Below, piece after piece: positions 4,440 through 62,565 of a stretch of 64,000 nt of DNA (position 1 is its first letter; each line of letters begins with the position of its first letter). Both the position numbers and the translations under genes were made by a program. The notes below the pieces were generated by a model that ran no database searches, was not told where the DNA came from, and worked only from the letters and a program-made list of their open reading frames with translations. The stretch comes from an uncultured Eubacterium sp. (GTDB taxonomy: Bacteria > Bacillota > Clostridia > Lachnospirales > Lachnospiraceae): assembly GCA_947385875.1 (NCBI GenBank), contig CANDMV010000003.1:1-64000 (forward strand). Reading direction: 5' to 3'.

Positions 4440-5534
4440 TTATTTTACCCCCACTTGATTAATTATACTTTTGGGAATATTCGTAAGAGACACCACTTCA
4501 TCAGTCAGACCGGCATCTGCAACTGCTTTCGGCATACCGTATACGATACAAGTCGGCTCATCCTGTGAGATCACATAAATCGGTTTTGACCGCTCCAGTT
4601 CACGGATTCCTTCTGTACCATCGGCTCCCATGCCGGTCAGCACTACGCAGACAATCTGGTCGTACTTAGACCGTTTCAGCGACTTGTACATCACATTTGC
4701 GCAAGGACGCAGCCCTCCGATCGGCGGTGCATCTGACAGATGAACTTTGTGTGTGCCGTCCTTGACCGGCACAACCTCCAGATGATATCCGCCCGGTGCC
4801 ACATAGACACAGCCCTTTTGAAGGATCTCATTATCCACTGCCTCTTTGACCGTCACCTTGCTCAGTTCATTTAACCGTTCTGCCATCGACCTGGTAAACC
4901 CTGTCGGCATATGCTGAACAAGTACCATCGGCGCGTCCATATTTTTATCTAAAAATGGAATCACGCTCTGCAGCGCCTTAGGCCCGCCCGTAGAACATGC
5001 CAACGCGATCAATTTGTTACTGCCGCTAGAGACCTGTTTATGCGGAATCTTGCGTCCTAACTGCCCAGATACCACAGCCGCTGCTTTTGCTGCCGCAGAT
5101 GCCGCAGCTGATGATGACAGATTCCTTTTTTTCGCCACAGGCAGCACGGAGTTTAAAAGCTGGATTAACTGTTGGCGGAACTGCACTCCCTTTGCCTCGA
5201 TAATATTCTGAGGCTTTGTCATAAAGTCAATCGCACCATACTCCATTGCCTGTATTGTAATCTTAGCATCTTCTTTTGCCAGAGAGCTGACTACAACTAC
5301 CGTAGCACGAATATTCTCTTTCTGCAATTTCTGTAGAAGCTCCAGACCATTCATCTTTGGCATATTTATATCCAAAAGCACAGCATCATAGCTGCGGCTT
5401 TTGATTTTTTCATATGCTGCCAGTCCATCAGAACATGTATCTATCGCCTCATACTCATCACTTGTATTAATTATATCACAAATGGCTCTTCTCATGAGTG
5501 CAGAGTCATCTACTACTAAAATATTTTTTTTCAT
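4440..5534 (-). CDS. cheB: Protein-glutamate methylesterase/deamidase CheB
   Basis: This 364-residue CheB has an N-terminal receiver domain (VVDDSALMRR, phospho-acceptor Asp in VLLDINMPKMNG) and a C-terminal methylesterase domain joined by an Ala-rich linker near residues 140-160. The esterase domain shows ACSTGGPKAL with the catalytic Ser, LVQHMPTGFT with the catalytic His, and VLTGMGADGTEG with the catalytic Asp. It demethylates chemoreceptors for adaptation. Its start overlaps the end of the PilZ gene by 4 bp. Confidence 0.97.
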   Translation of the reverse strand: MKKNILVVDDSALMRRAICDIINTSDEYEAIDTCSDGLAAYEKIKSRSYDAVLLDINMPKMNGLELLQKLQKENIRATVVVVSSLAKEDAKITIQAMEYGAIDFMTKPQNIIEAKGVQFRQQLIQLLNSVLPVAKKRNLSSSAAASAAAKAAAVVSGQLGRKIPHKQVSSGSNKLIALACSTGGPKALQSVIPFLDKNMDAPMVLVQHMPTGFTRSMAERLNELSKVTVKEAVDNEILQKGCVYVAPGGYHLEVVPVKDGTHKVHLSDAPPIGGLRPCANVMYKSLKRSKYDQIVCVVLTGMGADGTEGIRELERSKPIYVISQDEPTCIVYGMPKAVADAGLTDEVVSLTNIPKSIINQVGVK

Positions 5535-6283
5535 GGCTCATCAGCGCTTCTTTCTTTTATTCTATTTCTACGTTTTTCATCAAAAATATATCGAATAATC
5601 TCTTCGCGTATTTTCCGATCCCGAATCACAAATTCTACCCTCGTTTCAAATTTCTTACAGTCAGAAGACGACACAAACGATGACAGAATATGCGCCGGTA
5701 TCTGATAAATCTCGGAATCTTCCGCACTGCTCAGCTTTACTTTGATCATAATATAAGAATCATTTCTGCTCTCCGCGTCCGATAGGAAACGCGCCCCGCC
5801 TCCGCTAATATCTACAATAGACCCTTTCTGGCAGACAGTACTGGCAGCGGGCTGCTCTACGGAAGACTCATACCTCCCTGCCTGCGCAGACAGCGCCTGC
5901 TCTGCCGTAAGATTATAATATTCCATATCAATGACACACGGCATACGGAAATATTCCCGGCGCTGAAATTTATGCAGCTGGCTTTTCAGACTGGCGCGCA
6001 GCATATACATATTATTAGTTTTGTACCGCTCCTTTACAAGGCCCAGCCCGCGATAAAGACCTCCCTGCGAATAAAACACAAATTCAAAACGAATGCCAAT
6101 CGGCAGCATCACCATCTTTCCCGCCTCAGTCGGCATAGACAGCTCCAGCTCGTCATCTGCGAATATATTCACAACCTGACTTTTATAGATATGAGCTCGT
6201 ACTCCCGTCCTTCGTTCCTGCTCAATCTGCTGCATCATGCATAAATCTACTTTATTTCCCGGCTGAATGATATTTGCAATCAT
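5531..6283 (-). CDS. PilZ-domain c-di-GMP-binding protein, YcgR/YpfA (MotI/DgrA)-like flagellar brake
   Basis: This 250-residue protein has a YcgR-type N-terminal domain (about 1-100) and a C-terminal PilZ domain. The PilZ c-di-GMP motifs are visible: the arginine cluster FQRREYFRMP near residue 110 and the glycine-rich VDISGGGARFLS near 160. In Bacillus, the relative YpfA binds c-di-GMP and slows the motor by acting on MotA. Placement inside the fla/che operon between flhG and cheB fits a c-di-GMP-controlled brake on motility. A GGAGAA site precedes ATG 6283. The exact motor partner is inferred from the family. Confidence 0.88.
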   Translation of the reverse strand: MIANIIQPGNKVDLCMMQQIEQERRTGVRAHIYKSQVVNIFADDELELSMPTEAGKMVMLPIGIRFEFVFYSQGGLYRGLGLVKERYKTNNMYMLRASLKSQLHKFQRREYFRMPCVIDMEYYNLTAEQALSAQAGRYESSVEQPAASTVCQKGSIVDISGGGARFLSDAESRNDSYIMIKVKLSSAEDSEIYQIPAHILSSFVSSSDCKKFETRVEFVIRDRKIREEIIRYIFDEKRRNRIKERSADEP

Positions 6284-6325
6284 AATTCTCCTCAGTTCCT
6301 CACAGCATAAAGAAACTATGCCTCT

Positions 6326-7195
6326 CTATTTGAAAAAACTAAAAAATAGCTCCCTGATTCCCAGTCTCTCCTCTTCAATCACTGGCTCCCCATCAATCAA
6401 GCCCTGAGCCAGCAGCTCAAAGGCTCTGGCAGATCTAGCATTCGGCGCGCTCAAGGATACAATTTTCTGCGCCCGCACCGATTTTTCTAACAACACATCC
6501 TGTGGTATTGTACCAAAAAAATGTACTTCCCCCTGAAGAAACTTGGATATAACAGAGCTCAGCTTATCATATACAATCTGACCGTCTTCAGGTGATACCG
6601 TCCGGTTGACAACCACTTCGATATTCGTACTGTGACGTACAAAGCCAGGATTTCCATACAGTGCCTTAATCAGGGAATAAGAATCCGTTAGAGAACTAGG
6701 TTCCGGCGTCAATACCAGAAGCACCTCAGGGCTTGCCGACACAAATTCCATGACATTATTGGCTATGCCGGCACCTGTATCTATTAGAATAAAATCTGTC
6801 AGCTCATCCAGTTCGATCAAATTGTTTACCAGCCTTGACAGCTGATTTTTTGTCAGATTATTCATTCCAAGAATCCCATTCCCGCCAGAAATAAAACCAA
6901 TTTCCATAGGACCTTCGGTAATAATATCCTGCATTTTCTTACCATGATAGATCATATCACTTAAATTATATTTCGGAATAGCGCCGAACATAACCTCTAC
7001 ATTGGCCAGACCCATATCCGCATCAAAAATTATTACTTTTTTTCCCAGTTTCCGCAGCTGAACAGCCAGGTTAACCGCGATATTTGATTTTCCAACTCCG
7101 CCTTTTCCACTGGTGATCGTGATAACTCTTGCTTTGGATACAGATCGAGTCTGCTTGGATTTAATCACATTCCTCAGTTGTTCTGCCTGATCCAT
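6326..7195 (-). CDS. flhG: Flagellar number regulator FlhG (FleN/YlxH), MinD-like ATPase
   Basis: This MinD/ParA-type ATPase of about 289 residues carries the deviant Walker A GKGGVGKSNIAVNLAV and the switch II region FDADMGLANVE. DTGAGI appears in the Walker B region. With FlhF it sets the number and position of flagella. The frame opens at a TTG (7201), but the ATG at 7195 has GGAGGGG at the better spacing and is chosen. It overlaps or abuts the flhF stop, as in Bacillus where ylxH follows flhF. Confidence 0.94.
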   Translation of the reverse strand: MDQAEQLRNVIKSKQTRSVSKARVITITSGKGGVGKSNIAVNLAVQLRKLGKKVIIFDADMGLANVEVMFGAIPKYNLSDMIYHGKKMQDIITEGPMEIGFISGGNGILGMNNLTKNQLSRLVNNLIELDELTDFILIDTGAGIANNVMEFVSASPEVLLVLTPEPSSLTDSYSLIKALYGNPGFVRHSTNIEVVVNRTVSPEDGQIVYDKLSSVISKFLQGEVHFFGTIPQDVLLEKSVRAQKIVSLSAPNARSARAFELLAQGLIDGEPVIEEERLGIRELFFSFFK

Positions 7196-7197
7196 AC

Positions 7198-8517
7198 TCA
7201 ATCCCCTCCAAGTAATTTCTTCACAATTTTCTGCGTATCAAATACCTCAATATCATCCGGTACATTCTGTCCATAGGTAGCATATGACAGATTTGCTCCC
7301 GAATACAAATGGATATTTAACAAGTTGCCATAACATGAGGTCTCATCCAGCTTGGTAAAGATCAGCTTGTAATCCGCAAAAGTCTGATAGATATTGCACA
7401 TATCCTGCAGATCACGGTATTTTGTGGTCGCGCTTAAGACCAGATATACCTCAGTATCATAATCGGCAGTAAGCCCGCCGATTAAATTCTTCACATCTTC
7501 GCATTGTGCTGCATTTTTATGTGAAAATCCTGCTGTATCCACAAGAACTAAATCATAATCCGATAAATTATCTACCGCATCCTTGATTTCTTCTGTAGAG
7601 TATACGATTGTAAGCGGCATGTCCAAAATATTCGCATATGTCCGCAGCTGTTCTGTCGCTGCTATACGGTAAGTATCTGCCGTAAGAAATGCTACTTTTT
7701 TGCCTTCATCTACTTTATAACGAGAAGCAATCTTTGCTATCGTCGTCGTCTTGCCTACACCGGTCGGTCCTATAAAAAATACGACCTTCGGCTTTTTATC
7801 TCCTAATTCGATTGGCTTGGGCTGACCAAATTTTAATATCAGTTTTTGATAAATATGAGATAAAATATAATCTATATTGTTGCCTTTGCTTGAAATCTTT
7901 TCCAATTCATCCAGAATCTGGTTCGCGTATTTTTCGTGAACTTCATTGTCAAGCAGAGTCTGATAAAGCATTTTTATAAAAGAAAACCCTTCCTGCGCCT
8001 TGTTTTCTCCTGCTGTAATCAAACCGTCTTCCTGATTTTTCTTTTCCGCTGAGATACGGTCTTCTAAAAGGCTCTGCAAGCTATCCAGCCTCTCTTCGAT
8101 CGCACTCGCAGGTACGTGTGCCGGAACCGGCATAACCGGTGCATAGCCGGATAACTCTCTCTCGGGCTGTCTGCTGGAAATCATTCTAGTCTGCTGAACA
8201 TCCGGCGGATTCTGCGCAGCAACTGGGATATTAATCGGCTCGTCAGCTGTCAGATTAATACTTTCCGGCCGTCTTGCCAATGCCTCTCTGGAATCCGGCT
8301 GCCGGAACAATTCAGTTTTATCTGATTTATCAGATTTATCTGAATCATTTTCTTCCAGAGCAGCTGTTACTTCATATATAATTCCTTTGAAAGCGCGAAA
8401 TACTCCTTTTGGCTTTACAGTCTTTACGCTCATGATGACAACATCAGGTCCCATCTCCTTTTTTGCCTTCTCAATCGCTTCGCTTTCTGTCTTCCCCTGA
8501 AATTTATTAATTGTCAT
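7198..8517 (-). CDS. flhF: Flagellar placement GTPase FlhF (SRP-family)
   Basis: This 439-residue SRP-type GTPase has a basic N-terminal region, a long variable linker (about 75-180) with an Asp/Lys-Ser repeat, and a C-terminal NG domain. GTPase motifs are G1 FIGPTGVGKTTTIAK, the SRP-GTPase segment TADTYRIAATEQLRTYA, G3 LVDTAGFSHKN and G4 FTKLDET. It marks the site where flagella are assembled. It starts one base after flhA ends, with GGATGG upstream, so translation is probably coupled. Confidence 0.96.
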   Translation of the reverse strand: MTINKFQGKTESEAIEKAKKEMGPDVVIMSVKTVKPKGVFRAFKGIIYEVTAALEENDSDKSDKSDKTELFRQPDSREALARRPESINLTADEPINIPVAAQNPPDVQQTRMISSRQPERELSGYAPVMPVPAHVPASAIEERLDSLQSLLEDRISAEKKNQEDGLITAGENKAQEGFSFIKMLYQTLLDNEVHEKYANQILDELEKISSKGNNIDYILSHIYQKLILKFGQPKPIELGDKKPKVVFFIGPTGVGKTTTIAKIASRYKVDEGKKVAFLTADTYRIAATEQLRTYANILDMPLTIVYSTEEIKDAVDNLSDYDLVLVDTAGFSHKNAAQCEDVKNLIGGLTADYDTEVYLVLSATTKYRDLQDMCNIYQTFADYKLIFTKLDETSCYGNLLNIHLYSGANLSYATYGQNVPDDIEVFDTQKIVKKLLGGD

Positions 8518-10551
8518 TTACGCTGTCACCATCCCCACTGACTGTAATTCTACATTTGAATCGATCTCATTGTAGGATACCACGATAAGATCTTTAAAAT
8601 ACTCCTCTGTCATCTTTTTAAAATACATACGCACAATCGGTGAAGTAACGATAATCGGATTCTTCCCAAGATTTTCCAGCTTCGCAATCTCTGTCTCGAC
8701 GGATGCCATAATAAGCTTTGTCCGCTCTGGGTCGATTGCCAGATATGCTCCCTGTTCCGTCTGCTTTACTGATGACATAATTTCCTGTTCTATATTTGGA
8801 TCCAGCGTAATGACACTGGTCGCTTCGTTCGGCATAAAATAGCGGTTTGATATTGCGCGCTTCAATGCCTGTCTCGTGTATTCTGTCAGCACATCTGTAT
8901 CTCTGGATGTCATCGCGTGATCTGCAAGCGTTTCAAATATTGTAAGCAGATCGCGGATGGATATGCCTTCGGACAACAGATTCTGTAATACCTTCTGGAT
9001 CTCGCCGATGCCGAGCAGCTTTGGTACAAGCTCCTCTACAAGCACCGGATTGTTTTCTTTTATATTATCAATCAGATTCTGTACATCCTGTCTGGTCAGC
9101 AGTTCCGCGATATGGCTGCGGATGACTTCTGTCAGATGAGTTGCGATGATGGAAGGAGGATCTACAACTGTATAACCCAGGCTCTCTGCGCGTTCCCTCT
9201 GGCTTTCTGTAATCCAGATTGCCGGCAGATGAAACGACGGCTCAAAAGTAGGAATACCCGTAATCTCTTCTTCTACATATCCAGGATTCATAGCCATATA
9301 ATGGTCAAATAAGATCTCTCCTTCTGTAATCTGAATGCCTTTAATCTTTATAATGTACTGATTTGGATTCAGCTGAATATTATCGCGGAGACGAATAATC
9401 GGAACTACTGTACCAAGCTCCAGAGCAATCTGCCTTCGAATCATAACCACACGGTCTAATAAATCACCGCCCTGATTTACATCGGCAAGCGGTATAATAC
9501 CGTAACCAAACTCCAGCTCAATCGGGTCTACCTGCAGCAGCGTAGTAACATTTTCCGGCTTTCGAATTTCTTCCGCCTCTTCTTCTTCCTGCGCCGCCTC
9601 TTCTTCCACTGCTTCCACCTCCATAGACTTACTCATGCCTCTCGCAACGATCAAATACATTAATCCAAATGCCACAAACAAAACTGGGTTCAGCGGTGTT
9701 GCTATGCCTAAAAAAATCAATGTACAACCTACAAGAGTCAATACTTTTGGTATGCCAAATAACTGTGACACTAATATATCACTGATGTCAGCTTCTTTTG
9801 AAGCTTTTGTTACCAAAATACCTGTCGCTAATGAAATCATAAGCGAAGGAAGCTGGGATACCAGACCATCACCTATTGTCAGAACGCCATAATGCTGCAG
9901 CGCCTCCATCGCCTCCATGCCTTCACGGGTCATGCCCATTACTGTACCGCCTATTAAGTTTACAAAAGTAATCAATAGACCGGCAGTTGCATCTCCCTTA
10001 ACATACTTCGTAGCACCATCCATAGAACCAAAGAAGGAAGCCTCTGCCTGTATTTTTTCACGCCTGATTTTTGCCTCACGATCATCGATTGCACCTGTAT
10101 TTAAGTCAGCATCAATCGCCATCTGCTTACCCGGCATAGCATCCAGCGTAAAGCGGGCTGTAACCTCTGATACACGTTCCGAACCTTTGTTAATAACTAC
10201 GAACTGAATAATAACTAATATAATAAATACAATCGCACCAATAACTAAATCGTTTCCACCTACGAATGAACCAAATGTCGTAACAACGTTTCCTGGATCT
10301 CCTGTATTTAAAATCAATCTCGTAGAAGATACATTCAATGAAATCCTAAAAATCGTCGTAAACAGCAGCAGCGTAGGAAAAAAAGACATATCCAGAACTT
10401 CCTGCACAAACAGACAGTTAAACAATACAACCAGCGCAATCGATAGATTAAGCGCCAGCATAACATCCAACATCTGATTCGGGATTGGTATGATAAAGAA
10501 CACGACTGCAGCTAAAAGATATAATGCAACGCCTACATCTGCTTTCTTCAT
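8518..10551 (-). CDS. flhA: Flagellar type III export gate protein FlhA
   Basis: FlhA (about 677 residues) is the export-gate subunit that uses the proton motive force and docks substrates through its cytoplasmic domain. About eight membrane helices fill residues 1-310, with the conserved cytoplasmic FHIPEP-type loop containing ARFTLDAMPGKQMAIDADLN. A Glu-rich linker (EEEAAQEEEEAEE) then leads to the cytoplasmic domain ending near VVSYNEI. The frame extends to a GTG at 10566. The ATG at 10551 (MKKADVG) is preferred because of the ribosome-site spacing. Confidence 0.96.
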   Translation of the reverse strand: MKKADVGVALYLLAAVVFFIIPIPNQMLDVMLALNLSIALVVLFNCLFVQEVLDMSFFPTLLLFTTIFRISLNVSSTRLILNTGDPGNVVTTFGSFVGGNDLVIGAIVFIILVIIQFVVINKGSERVSEVTARFTLDAMPGKQMAIDADLNTGAIDDREAKIRREKIQAEASFFGSMDGATKYVKGDATAGLLITFVNLIGGTVMGMTREGMEAMEALQHYGVLTIGDGLVSQLPSLMISLATGILVTKASKEADISDILVSQLFGIPKVLTLVGCTLIFLGIATPLNPVLFVAFGLMYLIVARGMSKSMEVEAVEEEAAQEEEEAEEIRKPENVTTLLQVDPIELEFGYGIIPLADVNQGGDLLDRVVMIRRQIALELGTVVPIIRLRDNIQLNPNQYIIKIKGIQITEGEILFDHYMAMNPGYVEEEITGIPTFEPSFHLPAIWITESQRERAESLGYTVVDPPSIIATHLTEVIRSHIAELLTRQDVQNLIDNIKENNPVLVEELVPKLLGIGEIQKVLQNLLSEGISIRDLLTIFETLADHAMTSRDTDVLTEYTRQALKRAISNRYFMPNEATSVITLDPNIEQEIMSSVKQTEQGAYLAIDPERTKLIMASVETEIAKLENLGKNPIIVTSPIVRMYFKKMTEEYFKDLIVVSYNEIDSNVELQSVGMVTA

Positions 10552-10767
10552 GTCTCTCAATCCCACCCTTCCTTTGTATTTTCACCATCTATTATGACAG
10601 CTGAATCTGCTAATACCTTTTTGTAAAAAATTTTTCTGCTGCTCTTAATTTGAAAGAACCTATGCTCTTTCATCATCTGTCTGCTGCCAGACATCTGCAA
10701 AATGTCAGCCTGCTTATTATCCATAATTTTTCTCAAGACCTATCATTATATATATTTTACTGGCATA

Positions 10768-53401: not shown

Positions 53402-53719
53402 CTACAAAAAATAAACAGCTGCCGTCTCGCACAGAAACACAACTGCGCAGCACAGCACAGCAATCCCGACCATATTCATGCCTTTCCACGCAGCAAATAT
53501 CCCTGCTGCTAACGCAAGAATCCCTGCAATAGGAACCTGCGGTGCAGATATAATTGCCGGAAATGTCATAACCGCAAGCGTAACATATGGCACATAATAA
53601 AGAAATGACCGTATCAATGGATTCTTAATCTTCCCTCGAATCAATGTCAGCGGCAGAACACGAATCAGGCAGGAAACTGCTGCTGCCACCAATATATAGA
53701 TATAAATATTATGTTCCAA
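53402..53719 (-). CDS. azlD: AzlD family branched-chain amino acid exporter subunit
   Basis: This 105-residue protein has three to four membrane helices and the AzlD motif AVSCLIRVLPLTLIRGK then FLYYVPYVTLAVMTFPAI. With AzlC it exports branched-chain amino acids or analogues. The open frame reaches 53779, but the TTG at 53719 follows AGGAGG nine bases away and gives the usual length; an ATG at 53737 overlaps that site. It follows azlC. Confidence 0.88.
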   Translation of the reverse strand: MEHNIYIYILVAAAVSCLIRVLPLTLIRGKIKNPLIRSFLYYVPYVTLAVMTFPAIISAPQVPIAGILALAAGIFAAWKGMNMVGIAVLCCAVVFLCETAAVYFL

Positions 53720-53812
53720 CTCTGGAAACCTCCTCATATAAAAATAAAATGCCCGTTCTAAAATATCATACGATTTCACAAGAAATCATATAAACTGAAC
53801 CCTCTATCGTCC

Positions 53813-54541
53813 CTAATCGCTGCTATGAGAGGAATCCGATTCATCCTTAACCGGAAACAAGGCTGCCGCAATTCCTGCAATGAGTACCGTTAAAAGGCTG
53901 ATCTTCATGCTGTCAGACATGCTGTCAAAAAAAGGAGTCTCAGATACCGCAAAGCTTGCCAGAAAGCTTGCAATGACAACCCCTCCAACAATCTTATTCT
54001 GCTTCGAGGCAGGTATGATAATCGCGACAAACATACCATATAATGCCACACTTAAAGCACTGACAACCGATACCGGCAAAATATTGCCTGCCACAATTCC
54101 AAGAGCCGTCCCCATGGACCATCCTGGCAGTGCGACTGTCATCGCTCCATAATTGTAATACGGGTTCAGCACACCCGCCCTTCCGATACTGATTCCAAAG
54201 ATTTCATCTGTAATCCCAAATCCCACAAAAAATCGATGCACAATAGAAGTTCCTGAATGAAACTTCTGGCTGAGCGCGCAGCTCATAAGCAGATACCTGA
54301 TATTTGTAATCAGAATGACAATCGCCATCTCGATATAAGACGCGTCAGCCAAAATTACTGTAAACTCAGCGTACTCTCCCGCCGAAGCATGATTCAAAAA
54401 GCTGGAGATAAATCCCTGAAGAGGATTTAATCCGGCTTTTTTTGCCACTATTCCCAGCGAAAACGCTACAGCAAAATATCCCATAGCAATGGGAATCCCG
54501 TCTTTTGCTCCATTTATAAAAGCATTCCTGTTTTGATTCAT
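53813..54541 (-). CDS. azlC: AzlC family branched-chain amino acid exporter
   Basis: This 242-residue membrane protein has five to six helices and the AzlC signature GAKDGIPIAMGYFAVAFSLG, then NHASAGEYAEFTVI and ITNIRYLLMSCALSQK. GFGITDEIFGI follows. It is the larger subunit of the AzlCD exporter. It lies 17 bp after the channel gene on the same strand, with CAGGAGA before the ATG, so it is probably co-transcribed with the channel. Confidence 0.93.
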   Translation of the reverse strand: MNQNRNAFINGAKDGIPIAMGYFAVAFSLGIVAKKAGLNPLQGFISSFLNHASAGEYAEFTVILADASYIEMAIVILITNIRYLLMSCALSQKFHSGTSIVHRFFVGFGITDEIFGISIGRAGVLNPYYNYGAMTVALPGWSMGTALGIVAGNILPVSVVSALSVALYGMFVAIIIPASKQNKIVGGVVIASFLASFAVSETPFFDSMSDSMKISLLTVLIAGIAAALFPVKDESDSSHSSD

Positions 54542-54557: not shown

Positions 54558-56129
54558 TCAGCTCCATAGGATGCTCCCTAAAAGCTCCCATGCAGCATCA
54601 CGTTCTTTCCTCTGTTCATCTGTAAGCTCTGAATATGTGCAGAGCATAGGATGCTGCTTTGCGGCATCATTACGCTCCCGCCCATAACTCCAGTTATAAA
54701 ATGTATAAAACCGCAGCCACCGCATATGATCCAGCCTGCGGTACTGATCCAATACAGATTCATCTTTTTTGTTTTCACTATATGCTTCATATGCTTTTTC
54801 TAATATATCCGGCGCAAATTCCGTAATGGTATCATCATTTAATAAAATACGAATTTTCATCAGCAGGTGATCTGCGGCAGAGATCTTAGATTCCCGATGA
54901 AAATCATCCAGCTCCTCCCAACTGAGCGTAGGATAGGAAACCGACCGGCAGAAGATCTCATTAATCATAATGGCTGCCCGGTTCAAAGAAGTCCTCATAA
55001 TCTGATTCGGTGTATAGATTTCCTCATTCGTCCCAAAATAAGACACTCCCGGCGCCCGCCTGTTGCTATGAAGATGAATATTTCCACGAAGCTTATAAAA
55101 CTTTTTCAGCCTCCAGAACACGTTCCAGCCTTCCGGCTCATCGTCTGTACAGATAATAATACGGTCGGCCTGTTCTAAGATCTCATGATGTATTTCCCAG
55201 AATTCATCATGAAAAATAAGAGAATCTGATGTCTTAGATACCTTCTCCATCGAAAACATCTTATGCAGCTGATTATGCACGGCAAGGAATTCTTTCGCGT
55301 CTCCAAATATATGGTATGCTACATGCTGATCGACCGAAATAACATTTGTCAAAATCGCCCGTTCAAGAATACTGTGCCCATAATTTCCAAATCCAATAAG
55401 TACAATCGTATTTTCATAGCTGCACAGCGGCTTCGAGCGCCAGTACTGTCTGGCACAGCAGTCATAGCTATGAAAAAAACTGATATTTTCTGATAGATGG
55501 TCCTGTCCGTTCGTCGTCCTTGCATATACCTCCACCGGAAGCGTATGCAGGTCAACCGCCCGGCTGTTCACACCTATGTCATTCTCTTTCATAAGAAAAA
55601 CCTTGCATCTCGTGCCGATATTTTTCTTGCGCGCTACGATTCTAGCCGGAGATACATTGATAAACAGGCATGGATAGTCCGGAAATTCCCTTCGGTCATC
55701 TCTTTTTTCACCGAAAATAATCACCGCGGCCGGATCTTCCTTATATATGTTTTCAGCCAGAGTTCCGGCTTCCGCTCCATAATCCGCAAAATAATACCAG
55801 TTTTTCTTCCGCTGGAACCCTAACACAAAAAGCGGCAGACCTTCGCTCGTGACAAAAGATATTGCCGCGCCGAATAGTGTCATCAAAATACCTGCGGATA
55901 ACAATAGGAATACAACTCCGACCGCATATCCCAGAGGCGTTACCGGCATTACATCACCATAGCCTACCGTTGTCAATGTAACTAAAGAAAACCATACTGC
56001 ATCACTGAAAGACCGGATCGTCGCCCTGCTGTCGGTATGTTCGGACAGACAGAGGATCATCAGCAGTCCAAGATAAATAACTATAAAAGACATTGTCATG
56101 TAGAGATAGATTTTATTCCTTCTTTTCAT
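54558..56129 (-). CDS. Potassium channel with RCK-like and C-terminal RyR domain
   Basis: This 523-residue protein has two membrane helices (about 9-29 and 67-92) flanking a pore loop with the K+ selectivity filter LTTVGYGDVMP (TVGYGD at 54-59). A cytoplasmic region follows, with a Rossmann-type RCK/TrkA-N start IVLIGFGNYGHSILERAI at 242-260. The last 64 residues (460-523) match a ryanodine-receptor repeat: HMRWLRFYTFYNWSYGRERN, then KQHPMLCTYSELTDEQRKE. Such a fusion suggests a ligand-gated K+ channel. It lies downstream of a restriction-modification operon, 170 bp away, and 17 bp before azlC. The ligand is unknown. Confidence 0.88.
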   Translation of the reverse strand: MKRRNKIYLYMTMSFIVIYLGLLMILCLSEHTDSRATIRSFSDAVWFSLVTLTTVGYGDVMPVTPLGYAVGVVFLLLSAGILMTLFGAAISFVTSEGLPLFVLGFQRKKNWYYFADYGAEAGTLAENIYKEDPAAVIIFGEKRDDRREFPDYPCLFINVSPARIVARKKNIGTRCKVFLMKENDIGVNSRAVDLHTLPVEVYARTTNGQDHLSENISFFHSYDCCARQYWRSKPLCSYENTIVLIGFGNYGHSILERAILTNVISVDQHVAYHIFGDAKEFLAVHNQLHKMFSMEKVSKTSDSLIFHDEFWEIHHEILEQADRIIICTDDEPEGWNVFWRLKKFYKLRGNIHLHSNRRAPGVSYFGTNEEIYTPNQIMRTSLNRAAIMINEIFCRSVSYPTLSWEELDDFHRESKISAADHLLMKIRILLNDDTITEFAPDILEKAYEAYSENKKDESVLDQYRRLDHMRWLRFYTFYNWSYGRERNDAAKQHPMLCTYSELTDEQRKERDAAWELLGSILWS

Positions 56130-56163: not shown

Positions 56164-56294
56164 CGTGTTCCTTCTACAGACCATTCCGTAGTCTTTGGCA
56201 GCATACCTGATCTTATACTACTACGCAATACGTGTTCCTTCTACAGACCATTCCATGATCTTTGGAAGCATACCTGATCTTACACTATGCAATA
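56164..56294. repeat. Tandem direct repeat (67 bp and 64 bp) upstream of the channel gene
   Basis: Two adjacent copies, 56164-56230 and 56231-56294, both begin CGTGTTCCTTCTACAGACCA and both end in GCAATA; they differ at a few positions and by a 3-base gap. Each contains an imperfect palindrome around AGACCATTCC (AGACCAT...ATGATCT in the second copy). The array fills the gap between the nuclease stop and the channel start. It could be paired operators for the channel gene. Confidence 0.75.
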
Positions 56295-56299
56295 AGACT

Positions 56300-57562
56300 T
56301 TATATTATAGGCTTCGGAACAGGAGTTCTTGATTCCACTTTCTCTATAGCTTCTGCCAGCAGACGTTTCTGCTGATCCGGCATCCCGATATAATGATACA
56401 TCAAAAAGCGTGTATCTATCACAATGCCTTGTACCCGCTCATAGTTCTTTGGATCGGGTTTCCAGTCGCCGACAGCTTCACCTATATTTCCTATATTATC
56501 CGCTAATCCAGTCTCAAAGAAGGGATTGTCATTCTTATTAAATGGCATGACAAATGCATTATACAGCTTTTCGCTCGATATTCCCTTTGCACGTTCCATA
56601 TATTCGCCATAGGTTAGTTGTTTATTGATGTCAGGCCCTCCCGGCAGATGATTTGTATTTCCGCTGCATCCGTATCTGTAGAATTTCGCATCGAGGATAT
56701 ATACCTTATCGTTATAAATCATAACTGTATCCGGCTGCAGCGGCGTTTTCGTCCTGTCAGGGCCGTAATCAAGAAGCCATCTTGATCGCGGAAAATACCG
56801 ATCCTTATCCTGGATTCCAAATGCCTTGTCAATCATTTTCTCCCAGATGCGTTCAAAAAAATCTGTTCCAAAGAAATATTGTTTATCTGAAGACTTCGTA
56901 TCTATGTAATTGAGCATAGATACCATGGACAAAAACAGTTCCTGTTCCATATCATTATGCGTAGATGCCAGTTTTTTCTCCAGTATATAGACTGCTTCTC
57001 TGTGATCCGGGCAGGTGCCAGGCTTTTGGGGCATATAAGGCACATAGAGCCATCCCATCTTGTCAAACGCTTCATACACACAGTAACGATGTATCTGCGT
57101 GATTTTTTTATCGGCATCAGGCATAACGGAACGAACAGTCATTTTTGTAAATATCAATGAGCCGTTTTTCTGCACCAGCGCCCTCTGTTCACGTACTGTA
57201 TGCGGCCACGATACACGTCCTTTTATATCCGTCTTAAGCTGTGGATTCACATCAATGTAGTAACACCCTCTCCTAAGAAAATCCTGAATGATTTTAAGAT
57301 ACGCATGTATCGGGAAATTAACAGCTTCCGGCACAGCAAGCTTGGATTTCTCAATCAGCCGATCTTCCTTCATAAAGGCAGCAAGCACATAGAACAGATT
57401 CATGATATCTGCACGGAGATTATCATCATCTTCCGAAAGCTGATAACCAATAGGAAAATATATCACTGCATCATCAGTATCCGCTTTTAAGCCGACAAAC
57501 CTGTCCCCTTCTTCATTTCTGTTAATATGACAGCGTTCTCGTAAACTCTTTTGTATGATCAA
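56300..57562 (-). CDS. LlaJI-R2/McrC-like restriction endonuclease subunit
   Basis: This 420-residue protein resembles the LlaJI family endonuclease (the McrC-type partner of an McrB-like GTPase). The C-terminal PD-(D/E)XK nuclease is visible as TPLQPDTVMIYN then KVYILDAKFYRYG, with PD at 277-278 and DAK at 291-293. The N-terminal half (VNPQLKTDIKGRVSWPHTV, RALVQKNGSLIF) is typical of McrBC/LlaJI partners. The start is a TTG at 57562, with GAGGCGG eight bases upstream, 35 bases after the mcrB stop. It would cut DNA when driven by the GTPase. Confidence 0.85.
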   Translation of the reverse strand: MIIQKSLRERCHINRNEEGDRFVGLKADTDDAVIYFPIGYQLSEDDDNLRADIMNLFYVLAAFMKEDRLIEKSKLAVPEAVNFPIHAYLKIIQDFLRRGCYYIDVNPQLKTDIKGRVSWPHTVREQRALVQKNGSLIFTKMTVRSVMPDADKKITQIHRYCVYEAFDKMGWLYVPYMPQKPGTCPDHREAVYILEKKLASTHNDMEQELFLSMVSMLNYIDTKSSDKQYFFGTDFFERIWEKMIDKAFGIQDKDRYFPRSRWLLDYGPDRTKTPLQPDTVMIYNDKVYILDAKFYRYGCSGNTNHLPGGPDINKQLTYGEYMERAKGISSEKLYNAFVMPFNKNDNPFFETGLADNIGNIGEAVGDWKPDPKNYERVQGIVIDTRFLMYHYIGMPDQQKRLLAEAIEKVESRTPVPKPII

Positions 57563-57597
57563 AGCCTATGACCGCCTCGCTTTCTTTTCAACAAATA

Positions 57598-59103
57598 TTA
57601 TGCCTCTGCATTGGGATAAAGAGATGCGTAAACTGCAGGGTTGAAAATTTTGAACCGTTCACGTCCCTTGGAATATACAAAGGTTCGAATGATTTTTTCA
57701 AGACTGTCCATACTGTCAGTATTGAACAGTGCCTCTGGATAAAACTTAAAAGCATCATCCCATAAATACTTGATAACTTTCTCAGAAAACATACGATTAT
57801 GCATAACAGCCTCCCTGATTACAGCAAGCCTCTGCTTTTTCTCTTCTGTGATCTTTCTGGCAGCTTCATCACGCAGAAGGTCATTGTATTCGTCAAGGAG
57901 CGTTTTATATCCCTCCGCCGGCAGAGCCCGTTCGTCAAAAGCAAGATCATTTTCATGGATAAAATAGACTCCGATTCTTTTATCCTCAGCAGAAGACATC
58001 TTTGCCTTATTTCCAACAATGATACTGTTGACCTTCTCACAGAAAGCCCGCCACGTAACCCCTGTATCCAGAATCAAAGCATCCGCCAGAGATGCACGTA
58101 CATTTTCAAAGCTGTTTTCAATCATACGCATTCTCCATCTGCGCTGGAAAGCAGTATCAAGAGTGAATACGTTTTGATCAGATGTGTTCATGGTTCCAAT
58201 AATCGAAAGATTGGAAGGTATCCGAACCTTATGTGCAGGATCACCATAGATCTTTTGTGCCATATACTTATGTGTTATGCCATATTCACTTGTGCCGGCC
58301 GGGAAGATGATGCCTTCCATATTTTTCGGCTCCATAGTCCGATCTAGCAGCTGAAACACCTCGCCAAAGATTGCAGGAGCATTGCCCCGGTTGATTTCCT
58401 CTATGATAAAGATATATTCACACATCGGATGCCTATACGCATCCCTTATGACAGATGTAAATGGTCCTGGTGTAAATTCATAAATAATCTGCCCATCCGC
58501 ATCCACCCCCGGCATGATCTGACCTATGAAATCAGCGTTTGTGTAATCTGGATGGAATACAAGACGTTCCACAATACTGTCCTGATGGCAATATTCATGC
58601 TCGATCGTCCAGCTTTTACCTGACCCTGGTACTCCATATAAGAGAATATTTCTTCCATTACTTACTCGCCGGCTTTCATCAATCTCACACTCTTCACTTT
58701 TTTCAATAGCGCTGTTCCCCCATGAAGAAATCATATCCATCATGGCAGACATAATCTCCCTATACTGCTCACCCGTGATCTTTATAAACAATTCCGTCTG
58801 TTCGCTCTCATTTATAAGCTTCTGCAGCTTAGAAGAAACCGTCCTAAGTCCTGCCCCCGTCTTTGTCTCTAAGATCTTCTCAAAATAATGCCGAGAACTG
58901 CTCTGATCGTATCCTACATCAAATAAATAACAGAAAGTCCGAGCTGCTCCCGCTACATATCCAATCACTTTATCGCCCTCAGAAAGTGATTTCAAAGGTT
59001 CTGAATTTCCTTTCAGCATGAGTGAAACAGCACATTTTTCACCATGTCCGACTAATGAAAAAGACTTTATCTTTTCTTCAAGAATCAGTATAAAATAACT
59101 CAT
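57598..59103 (-). CDS. McrB/LlaJI-R1-like AAA+ GTPase of a modification-linked restriction system
   Basis: This 501-residue protein has an N-terminal region (1-110) with SEGDKVIGYVAGAARTFCYL, which looks like an EVE/PUA-type domain (inferred). The AAA+ motor follows: Walker A YGVPGSGKSWTIE (157-164), Walker B IFIIEEINRGN (231-241), and the McrB signature IIGTMNTSDQNVFTLD then FQRRWRM (305-325). It is the DNA-translocating GTPase. The ATG overlaps the stop of the preceding gene (ATGA), with AAAGGAG upstream, so the two are translationally coupled. Confidence 0.9.
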   Translation of the reverse strand: MSYFILILEEKIKSFSLVGHGEKCAVSLMLKGNSEPLKSLSEGDKVIGYVAGAARTFCYLFDVGYDQSSSRHYFEKILETKTGAGLRTVSSKLQKLINESEQTELFIKITGEQYREIMSAMMDMISSWGNSAIEKSEECEIDESRRVSNGRNILLYGVPGSGKSWTIEHEYCHQDSIVERLVFHPDYTNADFIGQIMPGVDADGQIIYEFTPGPFTSVIRDAYRHPMCEYIFIIEEINRGNAPAIFGEVFQLLDRTMEPKNMEGIIFPAGTSEYGITHKYMAQKIYGDPAHKVRIPSNLSIIGTMNTSDQNVFTLDTAFQRRWRMRMIENSFENVRASLADALILDTGVTWRAFCEKVNSIIVGNKAKMSSAEDKRIGVYFIHENDLAFDERALPAEGYKTLLDEYNDLLRDEAARKITEEKKQRLAVIREAVMHNRMFSEKVIKYLWDDAFKFYPEALFNTDSMDSLEKIIRTFVYSKGRERFKIFNPAVYASLYPNAEA

Positions 59104-59780
59104 ATTACTGCTCCTTTTTCATTTATAGTATCTATTACCAAATACATACTTGTTTTCATACGCGCAAGCCATTTATCATCGTCACCATTGCTGATTTCGA
59201 TATAATCTAAATACTCGTAGTCTGGCAGAATGCTTTTGCCTTCGATCTGAAGATCATATGCAGCAGTATCAAAAGGAGATATTTTTTTCTTCTTTCTCCA
59301 TCCAAGCCCCTTCACACACAGCTCCACATGTTTATTTTTATAAATGACATTCACCTTATAGTCACTGCCGCTTTTAAATGGTTCCATACGCTCTGGTGTC
59401 AATATTTCAACCCAGTCTCGGTTCTTTTGAAACACAATGGCATCTCTATGGCAGAAATCAAGATATAAATGATAAGAACCGTCGTCTTCTACTTTTTCAA
59501 TGATAACTTCATCTCCAGCATTTGCATTGACACGGCGGAAGTATTGTCCCAATCCAGATATCCGCTCTTGAGAATTCTGGCCAGTCTGAACATATTTAAT
59601 ATTCGAGTTTTCAGGAGTGTATAAAATTCCTTCGACACGGTCAAAAATAGTTATTGCCTGCTGGTTTACCAACATTTGAGATAAATCAATATCTCTTGGA
59701 ATAGCGATGTATGTATCATTAGCAGTGCCTGCCCCGATTTCTGTTGCATTCAGTCTTTTCAAAAAGCTTTCAATTTTCAT
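59100..59780 (-). CDS. Putative DNA-recognition (specificity) protein of the restriction operon
   Basis: This protein of about 226 residues has no nuclease, ATPase or membrane motifs. Its middle (ISGLGQYFRRVNANAGDEVI then EKVEDDGSYHLYLDF) resembles the beta-barrel turn of B3/EcoRII-N-type DNA-binding domains (GLxxYF...AGDxV). It lies between the double methyltransferase and mcrB, overlapping both by a few bases. In LlaJI the site-binding B3-like domain is fused to R1; here it may be a separate polypeptide. The function is inferred. Starts at 59789, 59786 or 59780 are possible. Confidence 0.6.
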   Translation of the reverse strand: MKIESFLKRLNATEIGAGTANDTYIAIPRDIDLSQMLVNQQAITIFDRVEGILYTPENSNIKYVQTGQNSQERISGLGQYFRRVNANAGDEVIIEKVEDDGSYHLYLDFCHRDAIVFQKNRDWVEILTPERMEPFKSGSDYKVNVIYKNKHVELCVKGLGWRKKKKISPFDTAAYDLQIEGKSILPDYEYLDYIEISNGDDDKWLARMKTSMYLVIDTINEKGAVI

Positions 59781-62565
59781 CACCATCACCGCCTATCAAT
59801 TTTATCAATTCATGTGCGATTCCCCTTGCCATAAGAGGCGGCACAGCGTTGCCAATCTGAATATAAGTCTTTAAATATGGTCCAAGAAAAAAATAATCAT
59901 CTGGAAATGACTGTACCCTGGCAGCCTCCCTCGGTGTCAATGCGCGTGCTTCTGTCGGATGAATATGAGAATGGCAGTCCGAACGCAGATGCGCCGTAAT
60001 TGTCCGGCATGGCCGATCAGCGTGAAGTTTAAAATATTTATCTTTAAATTTGTCATTTCTATGCGCATAAGGCATAATATCTGCTATTTTAGGATCCGTA
60101 GCATCGTCACCTGGATGCAGCCGACGGTAAATCTCGTGGTTAACCGGACTGCAGTATCTTGCTTTGTGGTTATACACCAACGGTATAACTCTGTCATCAT
60201 TAATGAGACGCAGATACCCATTTTCACATCCACGAAAAGGATTCGCGTCAATCTTACGCCCTGCCTCCTCTGTATCCAGTTCACTTACTCCCTTAACTTC
60301 CGGCGGCTCTAGAGCTCTTACACCCTCTAAAGCTGCCGACAAATTAAAAACCTCTGCATTCTTTCCTTTGTTCTCAATCGACTTAAAAATATCTTCCGGT
60401 GTTGTGCCGGATTGTTCCGCAACGTCGCTGCGTATAGCGATATATATTAATCGCTCCCGACTCTGCGCAACAGAAAAATCCGCCGAATTAAGCAGTCTGT
60501 AATCTACTGTATAATGGTATCTAAAGCCGTCTTTCACTGCATCGATTGCTTCATAATCCTCAACAACCTGATCTGCCACTTTCAGCATCCCCCTGACATT
60601 TTCCATTACAACAATTTTGGGAACAAGCTTTTCGACCACTTGAATAAAATATTTATATAATTCATTTCGAGGATCGTTAATCACCCGATGATGCTTATTC
60701 GCAGAGCTAAATCCCTGACAAGGCGGTCCGCCAATAACTATGTCTGTATCCTCTGTTATATAATCATCTATTTTATCCACAATTTTTCTGATGTCCCCGC
60801 ATTTGATCTGACTCTCCTCTATCTCTGGATGATTATATTTATATGTTTCAATACAAAGATCATCTATATCATTGGCAAAAACGACACGGCATCCTTCATG
60901 TATAAACCCCATGCTGAATCCGCCTGCGCCGCAGAATAAATCGACTAACCGCAGCTTTTTAGACCTGCGCTCCTTTTTCTGCTGTACTTTCCTAGCGCTT
61001 TCGTTTAGTTTCAATATGTAAGGATCGTAAAGCCTGCGGTTTCCGGCAACAGCAGCTCCACACCTCATGAAATCTTTATAACTGCTTATCTTTATTATTT
61101 TTTTTAATAAATTGACATCATCAGCTTTTTTTATATAACCCATTTCTATAAAAAGGTCTGCTGCACCATTTTCATTCTGTACATTTAGAGAAATATTCTC
61201 TTTTTTTGCTGCCGCCGTCACAATCTTGATAAATACCTCTATTTTTTCTTTATAATAGCGTTTTGCAGCATTATCCCATTGATCTATGTCCGCAATCGGC
61301 TGATACATATGCTGCTCCTGTTCTAACTTAACAAACAGCAGACGCATAGCTTTCGCGATTGCCTCGGCTAACATCGGCGGCACAGCATTTCCAATCTGCT
61401 TAAACTGTTCTGTTCTTGATCCCATAAAAATGAAATCGTCTGGAAATGACTGAAGCCTTGCTGCCTCCCTTACCGTAATGCTGCGCCCCTGTTCTGGGTC
61501 GGGATGTATGAACTGATTCCCATCTTTGTAAAGATGAGCAATAATCGTTCTAGATGGCATATCCCACCACTGCACTTTATAGCTGTTGAAAAAGACTCGT
61601 TTCTTTTCATGCCCTAAATCCGGCCTATATTCCAACAGCTCTAAAAAATTCCAATGGTTCTCTGCCATTACCCTATACCGCTCGACATCTTTTTCATTGT
61701 TCCTGCGTGCGACATGATCTCTGAGCTTCTTATCACTGTTCTTTCTGATCTTCTTAACATAAGAACTGCATGAATCATATGTATTTGGATAATCCACGCT
61801 CTTATCCCCTTGTCCCTGCTGAAGCTTTGGAAGATCACTGATCGCATCTTTCACTGTTACATATTTTTCCAATCCCCATTTAGACTCTTCGGATGCCCCC
61901 GGCAGGTAATGTGTTTTTACAATCGCCTTGTAAACATCCCTGGCCTCTATATCTATATCTTTTCTTACACCAAGCAATATAACCCTTTTTCGTTCCTGAG
62001 GAACCCCATAATTCGTAGCATTCAAAACAATGGTTTTTTCATCGCCTAGAACACGATAATTTCTTCTAAGACGACGAAGTATCATCCTGAAGATGCTTTT
62101 TCCGTTCACCTTCGTATCCAATAAGCCTGTAACATTCTCAAACACAAAAAACTTCGGCTTGAAATAATTTAACACCTTGATATAGCTTTCAAACAAATAG
62201 TTTCTTGGATCATTCTGCATATTGTTTTCATCCTTTGCTTTACCCAAAGGAGAAAAGCTCTGGCAGGGAGGACCGCCTATAATAATATCGACCGTCTGCT
62301 CTCCAACAGCTTTCCTAATTTTATTTAGTATATCTTTTGATGTAAGATCTTCTTCTAAAACAGCCTTTTCTGCATCCTCATACCCATAATATTTCATTCG
62401 CGCCTTAAGTGTTTCGCAAGCGAAATGATCAATTTCTACATGTGCTAACGCATGGAAGCCTTGAGCATAGAATCCTTCGCTCAATCCGCCGCAGCCCGCA
62501 AACAAATCTATGAAATTATATTTTCTCTCCAGTCCAGCTGGATTATTTTTATATGAACTACTCAT
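59770..62565 (-). CDS. Fused double DNA (cytosine-5) methyltransferase
   Basis: This 931-residue protein contains two full C5-methyltransferase domains. The first (about 16-420) has FIDLFAGCGGLSEGF, the catalytic GGPPCQSFSP (Cys101), FENVTGLL and IGNAVPPMLAEAI. The second (538-925) has LVDLFCGAGGFSMGF, GGPPCQGFSS (Cys616), MENVRGML, AQSRERLIYIAI and IGNAVPPLMARGI. Both catalytic cysteines and the ENV and GNAVPP motifs are intact. The target-recognition regions differ between domains, so each may methylate one strand of an asymmetric site. About 120 residues link them. It leads a four-gene restriction operon. Confidence 0.95.
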   Translation of the reverse strand: MSSSYKNNPAGLERKYNFIDLFAGCGGLSEGFYAQGFHALAHVEIDHFACETLKARMKYYGYEDAEKAVLEEDLTSKDILNKIRKAVGEQTVDIIIGGPPCQSFSPLGKAKDENNMQNDPRNYLFESYIKVLNYFKPKFFVFENVTGLLDTKVNGKSIFRMILRRLRRNYRVLGDEKTIVLNATNYGVPQERKRVILLGVRKDIDIEARDVYKAIVKTHYLPGASEESKWGLEKYVTVKDAISDLPKLQQGQGDKSVDYPNTYDSCSSYVKKIRKNSDKKLRDHVARRNNEKDVERYRVMAENHWNFLELLEYRPDLGHEKKRVFFNSYKVQWWDMPSRTIIAHLYKDGNQFIHPDPEQGRSITVREAARLQSFPDDFIFMGSRTEQFKQIGNAVPPMLAEAIAKAMRLLFVKLEQEQHMYQPIADIDQWDNAAKRYYKEKIEVFIKIVTAAAKKENISLNVQNENGAADLFIEMGYIKKADDVNLLKKIIKISSYKDFMRCGAAVAGNRRLYDPYILKLNESARKVQQKKERRSKKLRLVDLFCGAGGFSMGFIHEGCRVVFANDIDDLCIETYKYNHPEIEESQIKCGDIRKIVDKIDDYITEDTDIVIGGPPCQGFSSANKHHRVINDPRNELYKYFIQVVEKLVPKIVVMENVRGMLKVADQVVEDYEAIDAVKDGFRYHYTVDYRLLNSADFSVAQSRERLIYIAIRSDVAEQSGTTPEDIFKSIENKGKNAEVFNLSAALEGVRALEPPEVKGVSELDTEEAGRKIDANPFRGCENGYLRLINDDRVIPLVYNHKARYCSPVNHEIYRRLHPGDDATDPKIADIMPYAHRNDKFKDKYFKLHADRPCRTITAHLRSDCHSHIHPTEARALTPREAARVQSFPDDYFFLGPYLKTYIQIGNAVPPLMARGIAHELIKLIGGDGDEN

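Follow-up and report, generated by a model that had tools for sequence, protein, structure and literature searches.

The subject of this study is one gene in a stretch of 64,000 nucleotides (hereafter, the window) from the genome of an uncultured Eubacterium sp. of the family Lachnospiraceae (assembly GCA_947385875.1, contig CANDMV010000003.1, positions 1 to 64,000). The gene encodes a protein of 523 amino acids that joins a K+ channel to a domain of the kind found in animal ryanodine receptors (RyR domain). It is a real, intact and conserved minus-strand gene, and from its sequence and modeled structure one may infer a membrane channel that a nucleotide-type ligand controls through the pocket of the RyR domain. 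That the channel is gated by an adenine nucleotide or a ligand of the ADP-ribose type is the account I favor, with somewhat more confidence than doubt. Its family has the look of a ligand-gated membrane module, one that often has a TIR enzyme as its partner; the clade of the window's channel keeps pore and pocket and is without a TIR neighbor. The parts of the gene are as follows, residues in the pocket being matched to those of RyDEP, a phage protein considered below.

54558-56129, minus strand: coding sequence of the RyR-domain K+ channel, 523 amino acids (open reading frame intact; channel and RyR domains by Pfam; Lachnospiraceae homologues at 53-80% identity)
55830-56102, minus strand: two-helix pore domain, residues 10-100 (PF07885, E 6.2e-12; KcsA fold, Z about 10)
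55953-55970, minus strand: selectivity filter TVGYGD, residues 54-59 (kept in 53 of 55 aligned relatives)
55434-55805, minus strand: first RCK-like Rossmann domain, about residues 109-232, with a degenerate glycine motif (model secondary structure; VIA-align matches to CASTOR, GsuK, KtrA and TrkA)
54978-55415, minus strand: second RCK-like Rossmann domain, about residues 239-384, with the motif GFGNYG (model secondary structure; VIA-align)
54561-54944, minus strand: RyR clamshell domain, residues 396-523, canonical repeat 455-520 (PF02026; profile matches to RyR chains, E 2e-20; R12 fold, Z 6.3)
54726-54728, minus strand: H468, equivalent of RyDEP H75, catalytic / ribose contact (BLASTP with RyDEP; kept in 54 of 55 relatives)
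54717-54719, minus strand: W471, equivalent of RyDEP W78, which stacks on adenine (BLASTP with RyDEP; kept in 50 of 55 relatives)
54651-54653, minus strand: H493, equivalent of RyDEP H100, at the phosphates (BLASTP with RyDEP; kept in 53 of 55 relatives)
54597-54599, minus strand: D511, equivalent of RyDEP D117, catalytic (BLASTP with RyDEP; kept in 54 of 55 relatives)

The original prediction, made from the letters of the window, had placed a K+ filter between two membrane helices, and so it is: the match to Ion_trans_2 (PF07885) covers residues 15-94, with the filter at residues 54-59. Its first residue is T or S among the 53 filter-bearing rows of the 55-row alignment; the remaining two rows are filter-less relatives put in on purpose. 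An AlphaFold model of the monomer, built from the 55 relatives (predicted local distance difference test 87.1, predicted template modeling score 0.78), finds GsuK as its top Foldseek match (E 4e-7). VIA-align matches the full model to CASTOR (Z 15.0, root-mean-square deviation (rmsd) 5.9, 286 residues), GsuK (Z 13.6) and KtrA (Z 13.3), with TrkA also among the top matches, and the pore part to KcsA. From these folds the order along the chain is therefore pore, RCK1, RCK2 and C-terminal domain. The Rossmann start named in the original prediction is thus present as two RCK-like domains rather than just one, the second of which retains the canonical GxGxxG.

The C-terminal domain had been described as a RyR repeat of 64 residues. 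The nature of the domain stands; its extent is about twice that. Pfam matches PF02026 at residues 455-520 (E 1.5e-7; score 32.0 bits, cut-off 27.4), and the profile of the channel family finds RyR chains in a sequence search. In the structural comparison that had been proposed for this region, a separate model of residues 396-523 folds as RyR, aligning end to end with residues 878-1047 of human RyR3, the two-repeat R12 clamshell (rmsd 3.6 over 114 residues). Among its matches, RyR structures take the first 24 places, with Z from 6.3 down to 3.4, and unrelated folds reach at most 3.3; these values are modest in absolute terms, but the sequence profile agrees with them. The full model returns no RyR structure in its VIA-align list because its places are taken by matches to the pore and to the large Rossmann domains. 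Since the alignment spans both repeats of R12, the 64 residues would be the better-conserved half of a clamshell of about 128.

What such a clamshell might hold is suggested by a phage protein. A tblastn search of phage genomes returned 33 records, among them gp78 of mycobacteriophage DyoEdafos, known as RyDEP. This protein demonstrably binds 2'cADPR and 3'cADPR, isomers of cyclic ADP-ribose (cADPR), and cleaves both; 2'/3'cADPR was bound by 6 of 8 phage homologues tested (PMC13232231). In the crystal structure of RyDEP, the bound ADP-ribose (ADPR) product is touched by H75, W78, H100 and D117, with H75 and D117 forming the catalytic dyad (PMC13232231). The RyR domain of the channel, compared with RyDEP by BLASTP, is 40% identical over 53 residues, an alignment that starts exactly at H75/H468 and sets W78, H100 and D117 opposite W471, H493 and D511 (numbering counted from the alignment). 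The same tryptophan recurs in animals, where R12 binds AMP-PCP or ADP via the equivalent residue (PMC12627627). Since the pocket residues of RyDEP are kept and animal R12 binds nucleotides at the same tryptophan, the best guess for the ligand is an adenine nucleotide or a compound of the ADP-ribose type. Two side observations concern the pocket. In several close relatives (RyR regions of L110, L112 and L121) that keep the remaining pocket, G, S or A stands in place of the tryptophan, possibly a change of ligand. PDB 35tm is a sequence match that may be the RyDEP structure; it is not among the fold matches listed.

I propose that the protein works as a tetrameric, RCK-gated K+ channel, the Rossmann domains of its subunits forming a gating ring, octameric in channels of the GsuK/MthK type, under the pore. 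The clamshell would bind an adenine nucleotide in the pocket lined by H468, W471, H493 and D511, most likely ADPR, a cADPR isomer or a related NAD product, all of the ADP-ribose class. By closing on the ligand, it would pull on the ring and so open (or shut) the pore, altering K+ flux and membrane potential. The family appears to derive from membrane RyR effectors that have TIR enzymes as partners, or to have an ancestor in common with them. In the clade of the window, where the gene is a stand-alone chromosomal one, the everyday signal may be the cell's NAD/ADP-ribose status, or else something that a TIR enzyme makes in trans; given that solitary state, the trigger may be metabolic rather than immune.

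The proposed channel resembles several known proteins, each in part. GsuK, a dual-RCK, multi-ligand K+ channel of Geobacter sulfurreducens (PDB 4gx0-4gx5), has the same two-helix pore and two RCK Rossmann domains per chain, and is activated by NAD+ and ADP (PMC3510474). The window's channel differs in its C-terminus, which is a RyR clamshell in place of any recognized TrkA_C domain. GsuK is not known to have a RyR domain. Nor is one known in CASTOR/DMI1, plant nuclear channels with a tandem RCK gating ring, which share 10-13% identity with the window's channel and give its best VIA-align match. RyDEP has the same PF02026 domain and the same H/W/H/D residues, but it is a phage enzyme, a soluble glycosidase by which cADPR signals are destroyed, whereas the window's protein is a channel in a bacterial membrane, a single chain of which carries both halves of the clamshell. 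The R12 domain of animal ryanodine receptors is likewise an adenine-nucleotide-binding clamshell on an ion channel, but that channel has a different pore (a Ca2+ release channel of about 5000 amino acids) and no RCK ring. The fusion of RyR to channel probably arose independently in bacteria and animals.

The likeness to GsuK and CASTOR, the nearest folds, together with the canonical GxGxxG of RCK2, also favors a different account, that this is a housekeeping K+ channel run mainly by its RCK domains (through NAD+, ADP/ATP or Ca2+, as in GsuK), with RyR serving as a structural or dimerizing module without a ligand of its own. The distribution of the gene speaks for it as well. The channel is found in 10 of 13 genomes of the same genus that were searched, the window's own included (in one of the 10 the frame is split), and a scan of GTDB gave 260 relatives; the best 80 of them, which come from Lachnospiraceae and from further Clostridia, were used for a survey of gene neighborhoods. 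The gene is broadly present and stands alone among varied neighbors. A PADLOC scan of 107 immediate neighbors of the 80 loci gave only scattered, mostly generic matches, and Pfam assigned the immediate neighbors to ordinary metabolic or regulatory families; neither showed a clear defense signature. No relative was confirmed in viral contigs, the window's gene being chromosomal, and no whole channel was found on a phage or plasmid, the plasmid matches covering the pore only. Against the housekeeping account is the retention of H468, H493 and D511 in 53-54 of 55 relatives that reach down to about 25% identity, which is not what a purely structural role for RyR predicts. I consider a channel with an idle RyR domain improbable.

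To judge whether RyR proteins keep company with TIR genes, one may look beyond the window's clade. RyR domains are uncommon in a sample of the phylum (10 of 398 genomes), and in 8 of the 9 other genomes that have one, the RyR gene lies near a gene for TIR or for DUF4062, which is TIR-like (near meaning adjacent, or at most about 1 kb or two genes away). They occur in 56 of 397 genomes of a Lachnospiraceae sample, whose RyR proteins were sorted by membrane helices and filter and whose TIR/DUF4062 genes were found with profiles built for the purpose. Membrane RyR proteins without a filter are within 1 kb of a TIR or DUF4062 gene in 15 of 25 cases. These proteins are relatives of the channels: a comparison of profiles finds homology that extends from RCK2 as far as the C-terminus (probability 100, E 5e-57). 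In a tree of the C-terminal 330 residues, all channels with an intact filter (24 rows) form one group with support 96/94, beside which stand filter-less proteins that are mostly TIR-linked. The tree is midpoint-rooted, and the direction of change along it is an interpretation. The filter-less RyR proteins and TIR genes make a candidate for a new pairing of TIR and effector. The TIR genes lie within about 170 bp of the filter-less protein at L030, L149, L208, L213, L216, L218 and L224, and likewise at L226, L237, L238, L244, L248, L249 and L250.

A channel with its filter intact can also stand beside a TIR gene. Locus L220 (contig 15 of genome G862, positions 4874-10744) is a three-gene operon, in which the channel (6684-8198; PF07885 and PF02026) is overlapped upstream by a membrane protein of 607 amino acids with weak similarity to TrkA_N and has a TIR protein gene 2-3 bp downstream (8201-10744; TIR_2, E 7e-13; ThsB_TIR, PF08937, E 1e-8). 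In the 330-residue tree, L220 lies in the earliest-branching part of the clade of intact-filter channels. At L219 and L232, a large membrane protein of similar kind is seen by inspection ahead of the channel. It may be added that the TIR protein of L220 has WD-like repeats and that the same genome has a stand-alone channel, L228.

These pairings recall Thoeris, which consists of a TIR signal maker and an effector, and they suggest that the window's channel could itself be an immune effector, the membrane arm of a Thoeris-like defense whose TIR partner is encoded elsewhere in the genome. Infection would lead to TIR-made cyclic ADP-ribose, its binding in the RyR pocket to an open pore and a drain of K+, and the drain to a halt in phage growth. 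The filter-less sister proteins and the operon at L220 argue for this, as does the presence in the window's own genome of a TIR gene and of a stand-alone RyR gene adjoining a DUF4062-like gene. Among relatives, moreover, TIR_2 was present in 12 of the 15 that have the family as against 21 of the 46 that lack it (Fisher p 0.035, kinship ignored), a co-occurrence in trans that is weak and not obligate. On the other side, the window's clade is stand-alone and lacks the adjacent TIR (ThsB) partner of Thoeris, TIR genes went undetected in some channel-bearing genomes, and a gene present in 10 of 13 genomes of a genus is closer to a core gene than to a sporadic defense island. The PADLOC models recognized none of the RyR membrane proteins tested. 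I regard an immune role for the window's channel as unlikely. A broader proposal, that RyR-gated membrane proteins, L220-type K+ channels included and the window's channel possibly among them, are an undescribed branch of TIR immunity in which a TIR-made ADP-ribose signal opens the channel via the RyR pocket, I put forward tentatively, with more doubt than belief.

The favored account, a channel gated by an adenine nucleotide or ADP-ribose-type ligand in a family often paired with TIR enzymes, has its own difficulties, and the following results weigh against it. Within the Lachnospiraceae sample, 1 of 20 intact-filter channels is within 1 kb of a TIR/DUF4062 gene, against the 15 of 25 filter-less proteins (Fisher p 1.2e-4, with kinship ignored and L030 serving also as a profile seed). 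The same profiles found no TIR gene among 1369 open reading frames around 80 named channel loci, and with PF13676 / PF01582 no TIR was detected in 3 of 13 genomes that have an intact-filter channel. As to the protein itself, 5 of 55 relatives lack W471, and stacking on adenine is therefore not essential everywhere. Pfam finds no TrkA_C (RCK_C) subdomain in the channel, the end of the chain being taken up by the RyR domain. The models are of the monomer; tetramer and ring are predicted.

RCK channels, RyR ligand domains and TIR signaling are each already known. A RyR-gated K+ channel, or TIR paired with RyR membrane proteins, was not found in the literature searched, outside of which lies a preprint on newer types of Thoeris. 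The combination matters for two reasons. The authors of the RyDEP study raised the question of whether cADPR acts directly on animal ryanodine receptors via R12 (PMC13232231), and a bacterial channel of 523 amino acids, with the same pocket set on a well-understood RCK ring, would be a simple system in which to ask if a RyR clamshell with ADP-ribose bound moves a pore. The TIR pairing of the sister proteins, for its part, points to membrane effectors of TIR signaling that PADLOC does not recognize and gives a reason for phages to carry RyR proteins. Should the proposed TIR-RyR branch of immunity exist, it would be the bacterial counterpart of cADPR acting on ryanodine receptors, and phage RyR proteins would be decoys of the same pocket.

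Some further loci with RyR or TIR genes deserve mention. In the window's own genome, a contig end (L032:101-2586, contig C71) has a stand-alone RyR protein of 100 amino acids, followed after 39 bp by a TPR protein with a DUF4062/TIR-like start, and another contig (L147:69-7945, contig C99) has putative RAMP-like (type III CRISPR-like) genes, recognized by eye, with a TIR protein last. An island at L169:5841-12411 holds three in a row: a TrkA_N-RyR membrane protein, a protein of 600 amino acids that may begin with a SLOG-like part (by eye) and a TIR protein of 964 amino acids. In a genome of the same family (L145:654-7727), RyR stands alone between a protein of 1507 amino acids, with a weak match to a Card1-like nuclease, and a TIR protein.

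There remain the neighbors of the channel in the window, which had figured in the original prediction.

53402-53779, minus strand: azlD (PF05437)
53813-54541, minus strand: azlC (PF03591)
56300-62565, minus strand: LlaJI-type restriction-modification operon, a neighbor and no part of the channel system (Pfam, PADLOC)
56300-57562, minus strand: R2 restriction gene (PF09563 nuclease, E 9.4e-36)
57598-59103, minus strand: McrB-like R1, an ATPase (domain matches)
59100-59789, minus strand: extra gene, 229 amino acids, without any Pfam match
59770-62565, minus strand: fused double C5-methyltransferase, a single protein of 931 amino acids (domain matches)

The prediction that the channel might open on a second-messenger signal survives, with RyR-bearing membrane relatives so often paired with TIR genes, but its grounds do not, for it took the channel to be a membrane effector of a modification-dependent restriction island. 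The two are on the same strand, 170 bp apart. By its domains, however, the operon is an ordinary type II system of the LlaJI type, protected by methylation. Family knowledge and the domain matches indicate that it should cut unmethylated DNA, and the label 'modification-dependent' is therefore wrong. No relative of its restriction or methylase proteins lies beside any of the 80 channel homologues. Unrelated contexts, which the original prediction had said would speak against the island idea, are what the neighborhood survey found; this and the LlaJI-type identity of the operon refute a conserved association. The idea, now hardly credible, was dropped.

It had been suggested that the channel might equally belong with azlCD, put at 17 bp downstream. 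The gap to azlC is 16 bp, and the genes are probably co-transcribed with the channel in this window, without being an obligate part of its system. As an accessory of AzlCD, the channel would balance charge or K+ for the export of branched-chain amino acids, and azlCD does follow it on the same strand in 6 of the 10 channel-bearing genomes of the genus, overlapping its end in two. But the survey weakens this account: azlC is not the immediate neighbor in more than 70 of 80 loci, and at two loci it is divergent, upstream of the channel. The association is limited to the genus and rare outside it, which leaves the accessory role very unlikely.

On its other side, the 171 bp of DNA ahead of the channel gene found no match in relatives. 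A 57-bp tandem duplication of which no further copy turned up among the loci examined lies between the restriction gene and the start of the channel (56164-56287), its two copies 91% identical.
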